64,000 nt of DNA from Rhizobium sp. Pop5 (lineage in GTDB: Bacteria > Pseudomonadota > Alphaproteobacteria > Rhizobiales > Rhizobiaceae): the NCBI RefSeq assembly GCF_024721175.1, contig NZ_CP099399.1, forward strand, positions 3,952,001-4,016,000, written 5' to 3'. Positions 8,453 to 57,097 of the stretch are shown here, one piece after another. Within the stretch, counting starts at the first letter, position 1. Every line of letters starts with the position of its first letter. The notes below the pieces were generated by a model. That model searched no databases. It saw nothing but the letters and a program-made list of their open reading frames with translations, and was not told the origin of the DNA. The position numbers were made by a program, and so were the translations under genes.

Positions 8453-8468
8453 TATTTCACGTGAAACA
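8453..8468. promoter_or_regulatory. parS-like ParB binding site (15/16)
   Basis: TATTTCACGTGAAACA, differing from TGTTTCACGTGAAACA at position 2 only. It sits 3 bp after the leuB stop, about 46 kb from the proposed origin. Confidence 0.65.
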
Positions 8469-38565: not shown

Positions 38566-40476
38566 TCACATTGGCAGGGAGCCGAAACCACGCCTGCGAA
38601 GCGCCTCGGCGATCTCCTCCAGAATCGCCGGATCGTCAATGGTTGCAGGCATTTTCCAGGGTATGCCGTCGGCAATTTTCTGCATCGTGCCGCGCAGGAT
38701 TTTGCCGGAGCGCGTTTTCGGCAATCTGTTAACGGTGATGGCGGTTTTGAAGGCTGCGACAGGCCCGATTGATTCGCGAATCATCGCGACGACCTCTGAT
38801 TCGACCGCCGCCGTTTCACGGGAAACATGCCGTTTCAGTACTAGGAAACCGCAGGGTGCCTGCCCCTTCAGCGGGTCATTCACGCCGATGACCGCGCATT
38901 CGGCGACATCGGGATGGCGCGCGCAGACCTCCTCCATCGCTCCGGTCGAAAGCCGATGACCAGCGCAATTGATGATGTCGTCAGTGCGCGACATGATGAA
39001 GAGGTAGCCGTCCTCATCGACATAGCCGGCGTCGGCCGTCTTGTAGTAGCCGGGAAACTCGTTGAGATAGGCCGATCGGAAGCGATCGTCCGCCTCCCAG
39101 AGGGTGGGCAGGCAGCCGGGCGGCAGCGGCAACTTCACGACGATATTGCCGAGCGTTCCCGCCTCGATCGGATGGCCGGCATCGTCGAATACCATAATCT
39201 CGTAACCGGGCATTGGCAGCGTCGGCGATCCGTGTTTGACGGGAAGGGCGCCGAGACCGAGCGGATTTGCTGCGATCGGCCAGCCGGTCTCCGTCTGCCA
39301 CCAATGATCGATGACCGGTACGCCAAGCATGCGCTCCGCCCATTTCAGCGTCTCGGGATCGGCCCTTTCGCCGGCGAGAAACAGTGCCCGGAAATCCGGC
39401 ATGGGATAATTCCGCAGCAGTTCGCCTTCACCGTCTTCCCGCCGGATGGCGCGGAACGCGGTCGGCGCCGTGAAGAGCACGCGCACCTTGTATTCCGAAA
39501 CGATCCGCCAGAACGCACCGGCATCGGGAGTGCCGACCGGCTTTCCCTCGAAGATCAGTGTCGTCACACCCGCGATCAGCGGGGCATAGACGATATAGGA
39601 ATGACCGACGACCCAGCCGATATCGGAAGCCGTCCAGAAGACCTCGCCCGGCGTCAGGCCGTAAATATTCCGCATCGACCAGCTGAGCGCGACCATATGA
39701 CCGCCATTGTCGCGCACGACGCCCTTCGGCTGGCCGGTCGTGCCGGAGGTGTAGAGGATGTAGAGCGGATCGGTCGCCTTGACGGGAACGCAGGCGACCT
39801 CTGCGCCGCGATGGCGCGCGACCGCCATCTCGAAATCCTGATCGCGGCCGCTGACGAGATCGGCCTGAAGCTGCGGCCGCTGCAGCACCAGGCAGTGCAC
39901 CGGCTTTACCCGCGCGATCTCGATCGCCTGGTCAACCAGCGGCTTGTAGGCAACGACGCGGCCGGGCTCGAGCCCGCAACTCGCGGTGATCACCAGCTTG
40001 GCGCCGCTGTCGTCGATGCGCGCCGCAAGCTCACTAGCGGCAAAACCGCCGAAAACGACGGAATGAACCGCGCCGATGCGGGCGCATGCGAGCATGGAGA
40101 ACACCGCCTGCGGCACCATCGGCATATAGAGGATCACACGATCACCCTTGCCGATACCAAGCTCGAGCAATACCGCAGCGATGGCCCTCACCTCGGCGAG
40201 CGCCTCGTCATAAGTGTAACGGCGTTTCTCGCCGGTCATCGCGCTGTCGAAGATGATCGCCGTTTCGCTACCGCGTCCTGAAATCACATGCCGGTCCAGG
40301 CAGTTGGCGCAGGTATTGGTCTCGGCCTCTGGAAACCATCGGCCATAGACGCCCTCTTCAGGCGAGAATATCCGCTCCGGCGGCGTGAACCAGTCGATTT
40401 CGGCGGCGGCTTCGCGCCAGAATGCTTCCGGATCACGTTTCCAGGCGGCATAGGCCTGATGATAACCGTTCTGCAT
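38566..40476 (-). CDS. prpE: Propionyl-CoA synthetase (PrpE-like acyl-CoA synthetase)
   Basis: An AMP-forming acyl-CoA synthetase of the PrpE type, 636 residues. Relative to the AcsA in this window it has YTSGTTGQPKGVVRDNGGHMVAL and WWQTETGWPIAANPLGLG, both typical of propionyl-CoA synthetases, and [12 protein letters not shown] with the catalytic Lys. It lacks any methylcitrate-cycle genes beside it. ATG 40476 has GGAGCAG upstream. The degenerate parS-like sequence at 38812-38827 lies in the region encoding HVSRETA. Confidence 0.88.
   Translation of the reverse strand: MQNGYHQAYAAWKRDPEAFWREAAAEIDWFTPPERIFSPEEGVYGRWFPEAETNTCANCLDRHVISGRGSETAIIFDSAMTGEKRRYTYDEALAEVRAIAAVLLELGIGKGDRVILYMPMVPQAVFSMLACARIGAVHSVVFGGFAASELAARIDDSGAKLVITASCGLEPGRVVAYKPLVDQAIEIARVKPVHCLVLQRPQLQADLVSGRDQDFEMAVARHRGAEVACVPVKATDPLYILYTSGTTGQPKGVVRDNGGHMVALSWSMRNIYGLTPGEVFWTASDIGWVVGHSYIVYAPLIAGVTTLIFEGKPVGTPDAGAFWRIVSEYKVRVLFTAPTAFRAIRREDGEGELLRNYPMPDFRALFLAGERADPETLKWAERMLGVPVIDHWWQTETGWPIAANPLGLGALPVKHGSPTLPMPGYEIMVFDDAGHPIEAGTLGNIVVKLPLPPGCLPTLWEADDRFRSAYLNEFPGYYKTADAGYVDEDGYLFIMSRTDDIINCAGHRLSTGAMEEVCARHPDVAECAVIGVNDPLKGQAPCGFLVLKRHVSRETAAVESEVVAMIRESIGPVAAFKTAITVNRLPKTRSGKILRGTMQKIADGIPWKMPATIDDPAILEEIAEALRRRGFGSLPM
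38812..38827. promoter_or_regulatory. Degenerate parS-like sequence inside prpE (14/16)
   Basis: CGTTTCACGGGAAACA differs from TGTTTCACGTGAAACA at two positions, one of them in the central CACGTG. Probably weak or non-functional. Confidence 0.3.
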
Positions 40477-47338: not shown

Positions 47339-47956
47339 TTAAACCAAGCGCCGGAGATTTGATATTTCCAAAATGACAGATTCCTGCTCGACGGCGCTCT
47401 TATGTTCTAACAGATCGAATTCCCACCGACCACGTGCTTTGTCGATTTCCCTCAGGTAATCCCGGCCTTTATGAAAGAAGGCACGACAATTTTCCTTGCC
47501 AAGCATCCAGGGCGCTGAATATCCAATGAGCCCCTCGAGATCGGCCAGCGCGCGTGCCGAGATCGCCGCGCATTCGCCGATTTGGGCATGGGCATCTTCG
47601 ATTCGAACGGCGTGCACGCTGCCTCGCGCATCGGTCTCTCGTAGCGCTGTCCGCAGAAAGGCCGCCTTCTTATGGTTGCTCTCGACCAGATGCACCCATC
47701 CGCCCTGCAGCTCAGCCAGAAAAATAGCTGTAATGACGCCGGGAAAACCACCGCCGCTTCCCAGATCGACCCAAGTAACCGGCTCCGGATAGATCTGGAA
47801 GATCTGGCTGCTATCGGCCATATGCCGGCGCCATAAATCGTCGAGGGTGGACGGAGCCACCAGATTGATCGTTTTCGCCCATTTTTGAAAGAGCGCTGCG
47901 AAATGCTGAAGTCGCTCTTGTGTTTCACGTGAAACACGCAAACCGTTTAATTCCAT
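47339..47956 (-). CDS. rsmG: 16S rRNA m7G527 methyltransferase RsmG (GidB)
   Basis: SAM-dependent N7-methylation of 16S G527; loss gives low-level streptomycin resistance in other bacteria. 205 residues. [10 protein letters not shown] is the SAM motif. The N terminus [13 protein letters not shown] contains a perfect parS: VSRET at 8-12 is encoded by it. Between mnmG and parA in the same direction. Confidence 0.96.
47921..47936. promoter_or_regulatory. Perfect parS site inside rsmG
   Basis: TGTTTCACGTGAAACA, identical over 16 bp to the chromosomal parS consensus, within codons ~7-12 of rsmG. Confidence 0.93.
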
Positions 47957-49881: not shown

Positions 49882-49897
49882 CGTTTCACGTGAAACC
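49882..49897. promoter_or_regulatory. parS-like site in the mnmE-mnmG gap (14/16)
   Basis: CGTTTCACGTGAAACC: the 14-bp core GTTTCACGTGAAAC is a perfect palindrome and matches parS; only the two outer bases differ. Confidence 0.8.
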
Positions 49898-49918: not shown

Positions 49919-49934
49919 GGTTTCACGTGAATCA
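49919..49934. promoter_or_regulatory. parS-like site at the end of mnmE (14/16)
   Basis: GGTTTCACGTGAATCA, with mismatches at positions 1 and 14. It overlaps the mnmE stop codon (49932-49934), 22 bp from the previous parS-like site. Confidence 0.65.
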
Positions 49935-53361: not shown

Positions 53362-54393
53362 TCACTTCAGGCCTCGTACGCGATCGACCAGCACACGCAC
53401 ATGCTCCGGGTCCGCCTGCGGCGTGATGCCGTGACCGAGATTGAAGATAAGCGGACCATTGCCGAGATGCTGGAGAATGTCGTCGATACCTTCTTCCATC
53501 GCCCGACCGCCGGCAACGACGCGCATCGGGTCGAGATTGCCCTGAACTGGCCCGTCCTTCTGAAGCTCGGCAGCAAAAGCCAGTGGGACCGACCAATCGA
53601 GGCCGATCGCATCCGCGCCTGTCTTTTGTCGGTAGGTTTTCAGCTGGTAACCTGCACCTTTCGCAAAAGCGATGATGCGGGCATGCGGCCGCCGCGATTT
53701 GATCGAAGCAATCATCCGCGCGACCGGCCTGATTGCGAACGCCTCGAATTCCTTCTCGCCAAGAACGCCAGCCCACGAATCGAAGATCTGCACCGCATCG
53801 GCGCCGGCATCGATCTGAGCGACGAGATAATCAGCCGACACATCCGCCAGCAGCATCAAAAGATGCTCGAAGGCCCTTGGGCGCTTGTAGGCGAAGAGGC
53901 GGGCAGGAGCCTGATCCGGCGTACCGTGACCGGCGATCATATAGGTCGCAACCGTCCAGGGCGCACCGCAGAAGCCGAGCAGCGTCGTCTCCCCAGGCAG
54001 CGCATCGCGCAACCGCCGCACCGTTTCCAGAACGGGCTGGAGGTAATCAACGATCCCTTCTCCATCCAATCTTCCAATGCCGGCTTCGTCGATCGGATCC
54101 ATTTCAGGGCCATGCCCCTCTGTGAAACGAACGTTCCGCTTCATCGCATCGGGAATGACGAGAATATCGGAAAACAGGATCGCCGCATCGAAACCGTAGC
54201 GGCGGATCGGCTGCAATGTCACTTCGACGGCGTAATCGGGGGTGTAGCAGAGATCAAGAAAGCTCCCAGCCTTTGCCCGCGTCTCTCTGTATTCTGGGAG
54301 ATAACGTCCTGCCTGTCTCATCAGCCAGAGAGGAGGCGGGGAGAGGTTTTCGCCATCGAGAACCCTCATGATCTTTCGGCGCGTGTCGCTCAA
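53362..54393 (-). CDS. hemE: Uroporphyrinogen decarboxylase
   Basis: Decarboxylates uroporphyrinogen III to coproporphyrinogen III. 343 residues, full length. [18 protein letters not shown] at ~20-37 is the HemE signature; [14 protein letters not shown] follows. The start is TTG at 54393 ([15 protein letters not shown] in literal reading); the next ATG at 54369 would drop eight residues. It is the first gene left of the proposed origin, matching the hemE-oriC linkage known in Caulobacter and Sinorhizobium. Confidence 0.96.
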
Positions 54394-54792
54394 GCGCTTC
54401 TTCCCTATAAAAAATCAAAGATATTTAAAAGGTTTCTATTTCTTAGAGTCGGTGTCTATCAAGGATTAAAATCCATCCACCGCCGATGCCATTTGTCGCG
54501 CGCGCGCAGAGATCGGCGAAAGGATTCGCCAGTTGCACGCAAAGTTTGGGGAGAAGCCGAATCCGAAAATGATTCCAGCCTCTTCGGGACGAATGATTTT
54601 GTTCCTGCTTGTGGATAGGCTGTGGACCTGATCTAAAGAAGCTGAGCTGTTCCCCATCATCCACAGGGCCCGATGAAACCGATCTGCAAAATTCCAAATG
54701 TGGATAAGGCGGCATGTTTTCCCTTGCCCGGGACCGACCCGGCGCCTTAGCTCCCCATCATCCAGTCTTTTCAACAGGCAGCGGAAAATAGC
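54394..54792. other. oriC: Chromosomal replication origin (oriC), proposed
   Basis: A 399-bp non-coding gap between divergent hemE and ppsR. It holds an AT-rich block (~54408-54475), a dyad GGCGAA/TTCGCC (54515-54530), and a cluster of DnaA boxes: a perfect TTATCCACA on the minus strand at 54699-54707, CTATCCACA at 54610-54618 (minus) and TCATCCACA at 54657-54665 (plus), each one mismatch from consensus, plus a weaker box at 54621-54629. Three GANTC (CcrM) sites fall at 54446, 54523 and 54571. Flanking genes run outward and parAB lies 7 kb left. DnaA itself is not in the window. Confidence 0.85.
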
Positions 54793-55614
54793 GTGGAGAA
54801 CAGAACGAACTTCTTTCATCTGCATCTGATTTCTGACTCGACGGGAGAGACTCTCATCTCGGCCGGCCGCGCCGCATCGGCTCAATTCAGATCCGCCCAG
54901 CCGATCGAGCATGTCTATCCCCTGATCCGCAATCGCAAGCAGCTGCTGCCGGTTTTGCAGGCGATCGATGAAGCACCCGGCATCGTGCTCTACACGATCG
55001 TCGATCGAGAGCTTGCGAACCTCATCGACGAGCGTTGCGCTGAAATGGGTGTTGCTTCGGTCAATGTGCTGGAGCCTGTCATGGGCGCGTTCCAGATTTA
55101 TCTCGGTGCGCCGTCGCGCCGTCGCGTCGGGGCGCAGCACGTGATGAATGCCGGTTATTTCGCGCGCATCGAAGCGCTGAATTTCACCATGGATCACGAC
55201 GACGGTCAGATGCCGGACGATTATAATGACGCCGATGTCGTTATCATCGGGATCAGCCGCACCTCGAAGACGCCGACCAGCATCTACCTTGCCAACCGCG
55301 GCATCAAGACGGCGAACATTCCGATCGTCTATGGCGTACCCCTGCCGGAGAGCCTGTTTGCTGCAACGAAACCGCTGATCGTCTGTCTCATCGCCACCAC
55401 CGACCGCATCTCCCAGGTCCGGGAAAACCGCATCCTCGGAACGACGCAAGGCTTCGACCGCGAACATTATACGGATCGCGCCGCGATCTCCGAGGAGTTG
55501 AAATATGCCCGTTCGATCTGCTCCCGCCACAACTGGCCGCTGATCGACGTCACCCGCCGCTCGATCGAGGAAACGGCGGCGGCAATTGTTGCTCTGCGCC
55601 CGAAGCTGCGCTAA
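54793..55614 (+). CDS. Pyruvate, phosphate dikinase regulatory protein (DUF299 kinase/phosphorylase)
   Basis: A bifunctional ADP-dependent kinase/Pi-dependent phosphorylase controlling PPDK or PEP synthetase by threonine phosphorylation. 273 residues. [14 protein letters not shown] at ~8-21 opens the family; [15 protein letters not shown] at ~153-167 is its P-loop. GTG start at 54793. It is the gene right of the origin, as the homologue is in Caulobacter. Which of the two targets it serves is not decidable here. Confidence 0.93.
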
Positions 55615-55647: not shown

Positions 55648-56247
55648 ATGACAATAAAACTCATCCTTGCATCGTCGAGCCCCTTTCGACGGGCACTGAT
55701 GGAAAATGCCGGACTGTCCTTCGAGGCACACGCTGCCCGGATCGATGAAAGGGCAGTGGAAGCCCCGATGGAAAATGCCGGAGCCGAGCCAGATGCGGTC
55801 GCACTCGTCCTGGCCAAGGCCAAAGCCGAGGAGGTCAGTAGCCGTTTTCCCGACAGCCTGGTCATCGGCTCTGATCAGACGATGTCGCTCGGTGAGCGAG
55901 TCTTCCACAAGCCGAAGGACATGGCCGAGGCTGCAAACCATCTTGTGACTCTTTCGGGGGCAACCCATCGATTGAACAGCGCCGTTGCGATCGTCCGCGA
56001 TGGCGTGGTCGTGTGGGAACATCTTGCCCATGCGGAGTTGACGATGCGGGCGTTGACCGCGGATTTCATTGCCGGGCATCTCGCACGGGTCGGCGAACGA
56101 GCGCTTTCCAGCGTCGGCGCCTATCAATTGGAAGGGGAGGGCATTCAGCTGTTCGAGAAAATCGAAGGCGACTATTTCACGATTCTCGGTCTGCCGATGC
56201 TGCCGCTTCTGAAAGAACTGCGAGATCTCGGGGCAATCGATGGATGA
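55648..56247 (+). CDS. maf: Maf family nucleotide pyrophosphatase
   Basis: A Maf-like nucleoside triphosphate pyrophosphatase acting on non-canonical or modified nucleotides. 199 residues. [20 protein letters not shown] is the family's first motif (residues ~6-25, with SSSPFRR), and VIGSDQTM and [26 protein letters not shown] near the end are the substrate and catalytic motifs. Its stop overlaps the aroE start by 8 bp, so they are coupled. Confidence 0.93.
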
Positions 56248-57097
56248 TTCACGTGAAACACTCGGGCCGAAGGCGTTTGTCACCGGCTTTCCCATCAAGC
56301 ATTCGCGCTCGCCTCTGATCCATGGATACTGGCTGAAGACGCTCGGCCTGCCGGGCAGCTATCGCGCCCATGAGGTGGCGCCGGATGCTTTTGCGGATTT
56401 CATTGCCTCGCTCAAGGACGGCCGTTCCGGTTTTGTCGGCGGCAATGTCACCATCCCTCACAAGGAAATGGCGTTTCGACTTGCCGATCGGCCCGATCAG
56501 CTGTCGCGCGAGCTCGGCGCTTCCAACACCCTCTGGCTGGAAGACGGGCTCCTGCACGCGACCAATACCGATGGTCGTGGCTTCACCGCCAATCTCGACG
56601 AACGCCACCCCAGTTGGGATCGGCATGATACCGCCGTCGTCTTCGGCGCCGGCGGCGCCAGCCGTGCGATCATCCAGGCGGTTCGCGATCGCGGCTTCAA
56701 GGAGATCCATGTTGTCAACCGCACCGTCGAACGCGCACGCGAACTGGCCGATCGCTTCGGACCCAGAATTCGCGCTCACCCGGTCGGGGCGCTTGGCGAA
56801 GTCATGAGTGGTGCTGGCCTTTTCATCAATACCACCTCGCTCGGCATGGACGGCGAGGCTGCGCCGCAACTTGATTTTACGACCCTTGCAGCAGATGCCG
56901 TCGTCACCGATATCGTCTATGTCCCGTTGAAGACGCCCATCCTGACGCAGGCGGAGGAGCAGGGCTTTTCCATCGTCGACGGTCTCGGCATGCTGCTGCA
57001 TCAGGCGGTGCCTGGCTTCGAGAAATGGTTCGGAAAGCGCCCGGTGGTCGATGCGGCGCTCCGCGCGCTCATCGTCGCAGATATGGAAGCACATTGA
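56240..57097 (+). CDS. aroE: Shikimate dehydrogenase AroE
   Basis: NADPH-dependent reduction of 3-dehydroshikimate in aromatic amino-acid synthesis. 285 residues. [16 protein letters not shown] is the substrate site; [11 protein letters not shown] carries the catalytic Lys; [11 protein letters not shown] is the nucleotide motif. The N terminus MDDSRET is partly encoded by a parS-like sequence (56245-56260). Coupled to maf upstream; coaE starts 1 bp after its stop. Confidence 0.96.
56245..56260. promoter_or_regulatory. parS-like site inside aroE (15/16)
   Basis: TGATTCACGTGAAACA, one mismatch (position 3) from the parS consensus, at codons ~2-7 of aroE, 1.5 kb right of the proposed origin. 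Confidence 0.75.

Follow-up and report, generated by a model that had tools for sequence, protein, structure and literature searches.

A conserved block beside hemE as the probable opening module of a Rhizobium chromosomal origin

Sequence comparison indicates that the gap which separates hemE from ppsR, the PPDK-regulator gene, is very likely the chromosomal oriC of this Rhizobium strain, and that a strongly conserved block at its hemE edge probably serves as the opener, or unwinding module, of that origin. An oriC at the hemE/ppsR place is expected and is not new; the hemE-edge block, however, was absent from an earlier description of this DNA made from its letters (the sequence-only reading). 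The window, by which we mean the whole 64,000-nucleotide stretch that was analysed, spans bases 3,952,001–4,016,000 of contig C2 (4,430,159 bp) in a 6.74-Mb genome of five contigs.

The gap lies exactly where the sequence-only reading had placed it. NCBIfam, by which flanking and neighbouring genes were named, identifies the genes at its edges as hemE and the DUF299 gene, and these are divergent, pointing away from the gap as had been claimed:

53362–54393, minus strand: hemE, start codon TTG at 54393 (TIGR01464)
54394–54792, unstranded: putative oriC gap, from hemE to the PPDK-regulator gene (ppsR), 399 bp
54793–55614, plus strand: PPDK/PEP synthase regulator gene (DUF299, ppsR), start codon GTG at 54793 (NF003742)

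An alphaproteobacterial oriC of the hemE/ppsR type has hemE and the DUF299 gene diverging from a non-coding stretch of roughly 400 bp, and the same arrangement is found here, with 399 bp. The gap had been described as non-coding on both strands. Mechanical open reading frames do cross it, but we take it to be non-coding because its middle is poorly conserved in the alignment of relatives, among which its length is 398–405 bp. Rfam lists no RNA within the window at gathering thresholds, and the gap, folded as a single strand, does not outperform shuffles (z 0.07). The cluster of origin-linked genes said to surround the gap was recovered in part: NCBIfam supports parB, holA and dnaQ, but the ParA-type gene falls below the ParA/RepA cut-offs and gyrB is recognised by translation alone. 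Also near the gap are rho and hemJ (NCBIfam). The start of parB is about 8 kb from the gap, and a parB–origin distance of 8.5 kb is reported for A. tumefaciens (PMC5553026).

Within the gap, the three DnaA boxes claimed in 98 bp are present, one perfect and two with a single mismatch, as is the AT-rich block; a weak box at the ppsR edge had gone unmentioned. These elements, and the parS sites on either side of the gap, are as follows:

54394–54431, unstranded: AT-rich flank of the putative unwinding element, AT maximum starting at 54398
54610–54618, minus strand: DnaA box CTATCCACA, one mismatch
54657–54665, plus strand: DnaA box TCATCCACA, one mismatch
54699–54707, minus strand: DnaA box TTATCCACA, perfect
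54768–54776, plus strand: weak DnaA box TTTTCAACA at the ppsR edge, two mismatches
47922–47935, unstranded: parS, perfect
49883–49896, unstranded: parS, perfect
49920–49933, unstranded: parS, one mismatch
56246–56259, unstranded: parS, one mismatch

It is the clustering of the boxes, and not their number, that is unusual in the window, which holds an ordinary six sites with at most one mismatch (4.4 expected; 21 of 100 shuffles reach six). The genome as a whole contains 12 copies of the perfect TTATCCACA and 100 sites matching YYATCCACA, a pattern picked after the boxes had been seen; three such sites within 98 bp occur solely at the gap, and clusters of this kind are expected by chance at about 1e-4. 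AT content over 50 bp peaks at a segment beginning at 54398, which none of the 63,950 such segments in the window exceeds. The two marks of an oriC are thus both found, the box cluster being unusual genome-wide and the AT maximum having been tested within the window. A box with at most one mismatch is also present at the ppsR edge (last 70 nt) in 25 of 40 other Rhizobiaceae genera. Six parS-like sites with up to three mismatches lie in the window, a number equalled in 0 of 100 shuffles, and the parS offsets are similar in two further species, the −4.56 kb site being unmatched in one of them (G023). Separately, we noted extra one-mismatch parS-like sites left of the gap at 8454–8467 and 38813–38826, the first of which is found again, near −46 kb, in three species.

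The sequence-only reading had further looked to a skew minimum at the gap. We sampled 61 stretches (about 1.25 of 4.43 Mb) and fitted two breakpoints, with 60 bootstrap resamples for each skew. The best origin position relative to the gap was −110 kb for GC skew (5–95% −343 to +20 kb) and +10 kb for TA skew (5–95% −75 to +150 kb). Both fits prefer the gap to dnaA: the sum of squares for GC is 0.3070 with the origin at the gap and 0.3298 with it at dnaA, the optimum being 0.3051, and the corresponding values for TA are 0.9742, 1.0255 and 0.9706. The minimum itself, however, is not at the gap: over a contiguous 240 kb the raw cumulative GC minimum lies 20.9 kb right of the hemE-edge block, and two relatives, each over 400 kb, have it 23.4 and 15.9 kb to the right. 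The skew is weak; it accords with an origin at the gap and speaks against dnaA, but it does not pinpoint the gap and gives no clean minimum there.

These data bear on the alternative that replication starts elsewhere, at dnaA or up to about 100 kb from the gap, the gap being a relic or a regulatory region. In its favour, the contig starts with dnaA, the best GC break and the raw GC minimum are both displaced, and KOPS-like polarity prefers an origin at least 100 kb further left: among 168 GGGNAGGG sites, 25 point the wrong way if replication starts at the gap, 42 if it starts at dnaA and 17 if it starts 100 kb left. However, since dnaA sits at the contig start, 424 kb from the gap, that start appears to be a numbering convention, and dnaA fits worse by GC skew, TA skew and KOPS-like sites alike. 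Moreover, no second such DnaA-box cluster exists in the genome, the GC fit at the gap is near the best, and the TA optimum is 10 kb away. We therefore regard an origin elsewhere as highly improbable. The reading of the gap as oriC is supported by its neighbourhood, the unique box cluster, the AT-rich block, parS, conservation in the family and the published origin of Caulobacter, and the S. meliloti origin region is consistent with it. Two further observations were made to the left of the gap. The last eight GGGNAGGG sites there all point the wrong way (C2:3,906,920–4,001,252; window 3140–49252 and further left), a run that points to an origin about 100 kb or more left, with relatives giving a mixed picture. 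In addition, an inverted CCCTCCCC/GGGGAGGG cluster (L049 340–500; C2:3,890,340–3,890,500) is present in three species at roughly −115 to −117 kb and looks like an intergenic palindromic repeat.

Alignment of 95 distinct gaps from Rhizobium and close kin showed that the best-conserved part is the hemE edge, 54432–54469, and not the box cluster. Each of the columns 54432–54450 and 54456–54469 is at least 95% identical, and positions 54434–54453 carry 1.93 of 2 bits of information against an average of 1.06. This block consists of four elements:

54432–54446, plus strand: T-rich tract GTT TCT ATT TCT TAG, in the DnaA-trio position
54446–54450, unstranded: GAGTC, a CcrM (GANTC) site where the tract adjoins the boxes
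54451–54459, plus strand: candidate degenerate DnaA box 1 (GGTGTCTAT), proposed from alignment with TGTGGATAA of other orders
54460–54468, plus strand: candidate degenerate DnaA box 2 (CAAGGATTA), with TTAG-N16-GGATTA spacing

The block thus runs GTT TCT ATT TCT TAG, AGTC (the preceding G completing GANTC), GGTGTCTAT, CAAGGATTA. An example from other Rhizobiaceae genera reads GAT TCT TCT GAT TCT TAG ACTC TGTTTGTAA TGTGGATTC; 36 of 40 such genera could be anchored, and 35 of these 36 have GANTC at the junction. A whole-genome search found the family motif TTCTNNTTCTNNGASTCKGT in 161 of 297 Rhizobiaceae genomes, compared with 4 of 297 for a reversed control (the four tallied by eye); the exact motif is missing from the other 136. 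In 20 of 20 hand-picked hits among the matches listed, hemE starts 34–59 bp, and once 130 bp, from the motif. No ppsR was seen in the fetched stretch in six of these 20, four of the loci having been selected because the ppsR search had found nothing there. The block would accordingly offer a sequence tag for the Rhizobiaceae chromosomal origin even where its ppsR neighbour is not found. Three side observations belong here. The ppsR protein was unmatched in 18 of 61 Rhizobiaceae genomes, at least four of which (G062, G074, G083 and G101) retain hemE and the origin motif. In three loci of other Hyphomicrobiales families (L099, L102 and L105) the distance from TTAG/CTAG to GGAT seems, by eye, to be either 5 or 16 bases, values that differ by one helical turn. 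Finally, AAG AAA TAG AAA on the minus strand was considered as a DnaA-trio array and dropped, the boxes being on the wrong side.

In Caulobacter, hemE promoters lie inside the origin. The gap might likewise be oriC while the hemE-edge block is mainly a hemE promoter or leader, its conservation reflecting transcription and not unwinding, and the short distance from the block to the hemE start in all 20 picked loci makes promoter placement possible. Against this, we found no sigma-70-type promoter or terminator consensus at 54300–54850, with the proviso that rhizobial promoters may differ. Furthermore, in one genome (G054, locus L109) no hemE was found in the 1.6 kb before ppsR, yet by eye it carries a T-rich block with GANTC; the S. 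meliloti oriC region is reported to be without transcription (PMC2245857); and the block holds the position that the trio and box occupy in other orders. We consider a promoter or leader an unlikely explanation of the block, and proceed with the reading of it as the probable opener.

That position was examined across the Alphaproteobacteria. ppsR loci were read in 36 of 37 matched Rhizobium-genus genomes (G013 left out), 40 of 41 other-genus matches (G108 left out; the named loci L117–L196 overlap this set), 14 of 21 other-family matches plus one added from a separate search, and 28 of 40 other-order matches; gap counts omit L109 and L304, whose stretches lack hemE, and L111, whose record starts inside the gap. 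At the same edge, other orders often have (TAG/TGG/TTG)n, a short spacer, and TGTGGATAA-like and CGGGGAT-like 9-mers side by side. This is how the basal unwinding system (BUS) of B. subtilis is laid out, with trio triplets beside DnaA boxes. The published BUS rule asks for three or more 3′-NAN-5′ triplets no further than 16 bp from a DnaA box, and broad conservation has been proposed from the 85% of 2070 origins that satisfy it as applied by its authors (PMC8287927). By a strict rule, set after looking, of at least three T[AGT]G triplets no more than 16 bp from a box with up to two mismatches, trios are present in 10 of 27 gaps from other orders and missing from the remaining 17. They occur in 0/14 gaps of other Hyphomicrobiales families, 0/40 of other Rhizobiaceae genera and 0/35 of Rhizobium, 0/89 together, and shuffles give 0. 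The gap under study itself fails the published rule, its longest NAN run being two whether boxes are allowed one mismatch or two. That published rule, looser than the strict one (NAN triplets, box with at most one mismatch), is passed by 12 of 40 Rhizobiaceae genera against 0.2 in shuffles and by 5 of 35 Rhizobium gaps against 1.0, in both cases at scattered boxes, and by 6 of 27 other-order gaps against 0.4. Simple trio loss is therefore disfavoured by the passes in Rhizobiaceae.

The triplet counts also bear on whether, in a gap that is oriC, melting is instead anchored at the 54699 box in the ppsR half, the hemE-edge block having another role. The TGTGGA core of that box (54699–54704) is at least 99% conserved in the 95 gaps, and several family gaps have NAN triplets beside a box that lies at the same distance from hemE, about 301–310. 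However, the gap under study has no three-NAN run at any box, and its ppsR half is less AT-rich than its hemE half. We judge melting from the 54699 box to be rather improbable, and opening at the hemE edge remains our preferred reading.

In B. subtilis DnaA, Asn187 touches the middle base of every trio, Ile190 and Ile193 flank the third, and Lys222 and Glu223 hold the strand at the fork; alanine at Asn187, Ile190 or Ile193 causes a severe growth defect (PMC10721633). We sought DnaA by BLAST in 60 genomes and read it in 59 (no match in G190). The loop of Lys222/Glu223 is one residue short in 38/38 Hyphomicrobiales and in 0/21 other Alphaproteobacteria, and alignment to 8btg places Trp and Ala at the Asn187 and Ile190 positions in 17/17 Rhizobiaceae and 0/42 others. 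The box-reading motif RDHTTVLHA is unchanged in Rhizobium DnaA. Among the 52 genomes in which both gap and DnaA were read, strict trios accompany a full loop in 10 of 21 and a short loop in 0 of 31. Since genomes share ancestry, this contrast counts few events: it is a clade-level one, of one or two events, and not dozens or 52 tests. The 187 position holds Tyr instead of Asn in most other Alphaproteobacteria, even in those with trios; this contact is therefore not kept with trios either, and Trp is a smaller step than it appears. The elements, their conservation and their co-occurrence with the DnaA changes are what we observe; that the opening mechanism was recoded, with matching changes in DnaA, is a tentative suggestion that we hold with less than even confidence.

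The genome encodes CcrM (E 1e-161 to 6pbd). The GANTC at 54446–54450 separates the last triplet from the boxes, and in the B. subtilis model the fork would begin opening at about this point. Counts of GANTC against shuffles were set aside, the site being palindromic and shuffles possibly treating the two strands differently. Effects of CcrM on the second origin have been reported in A. tumefaciens (PMC11514494).

These results suggest a model for initiation at this origin. DnaA would load on the boxes at 54610–54707, with the weak box at 54768, and nucleate at the two degenerate tandem boxes (54451–54468). It would then open the adjacent tract (54432–54446) and the AT-rich flank (54394–54431), where the helicase would be loaded; forks would depart both ways, and ParB at the flanking parS sites would segregate the origin. 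In many Alphaproteobacteria outside the Hyphomicrobiales the opener would resemble a B. subtilis-type BUS, with TAG/TGG/TTG next to TGTGGATAA. Across the Hyphomicrobiales, and with the greatest clarity in Rhizobiaceae, recoding may have replaced these triplets and boxes by a T-rich tract that ends in TAG and has a CcrM site at its junction, paired with changes in the DnaA residues that in B. subtilis contact opener DNA. From sequence we infer in this way origin function here, the start of melting, adaptation of DnaA to the new sequence and any effect of methylation. The fullest version, which we offer as at best a doubtful possibility, is that the Hyphomicrobiales recoded DnaA opening in steps, a short loop with loss of canonical trios being followed in Rhizobiaceae by Trp/Ala and the T-rich tract; since the junction is a CcrM site, its methylation state could then gate melting directly. 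If true, an entire order of bacteria, one that includes many plant symbionts, would use a diverged unwinding element and a diverged initiator, providing a natural, testable exception to, or recoding of, the DnaA-trio/BUS model, with bases and residues named for comparison. Among the papers listed in searches of largely open-access literature, none dealt with DnaA-trios in rhizobia; in the one paper that mentions both, DnaA-trio appears within a cited title only.

How does this origin compare with known ones? Cori of Caulobacter crescentus has the identical two flanking genes, 404 bp apart, with DnaA boxes and an AT-rich part, and the sequence-only reading named these Caulobacter origin neighbours correctly; five CtrA sites and one IHF site are also reported there (PMC1914354). 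Unlike Cori, the gap has no CtrA consensus TTAA-N7-TTAA with up to one mismatch, and it has no exact IHF consensus, where degenerate sites could remain.

The chromosomal oriC of S. meliloti was reportedly mapped by Sibley in 2006. An S. meliloti record opens with a stretch 88.7% identical to window 54410–54478, followed by a ppsR-type gene, 17% of the gap being aligned. The intergenic region sra01 is described as the S. meliloti oriC (PMC2245857). CtrA is reported not to bind the S. meliloti origin, with which the absence of its consensus here agrees (PMC4433202). As an aside, one S. meliloti record of 3.72 Mb that bears the title plasmid pSymB (L376, CP090106.1) opens with the chromosomal origin block and a ppsR-type gene, and may be a mislabelled chromosome.

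With the B. subtilis BUS the hemE edge shares its order: an AT-rich side, a tract ending in TAG, a short spacer and tandem boxes. It differs in that the gap studied here has no three-NAN run beside a box, its boxes are degenerate and the DnaA contacts are changed. E. coli oriC has other neighbours and another methylase, and the boxes in the gap are degenerate; in a match noticed post hoc, it carries TTAG-N16-GGATAA at its unwinding side where Rhizobium has TTAG-N16-GGATTA, both on the T-rich strand. In each case an adenine-methylation site follows TTAG, Dam GATC in E. coli and CcrM GANTC here, and the gating suggested for CcrM would have its parallel in the Dam sites that the unwinding element of E. 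coli contains.
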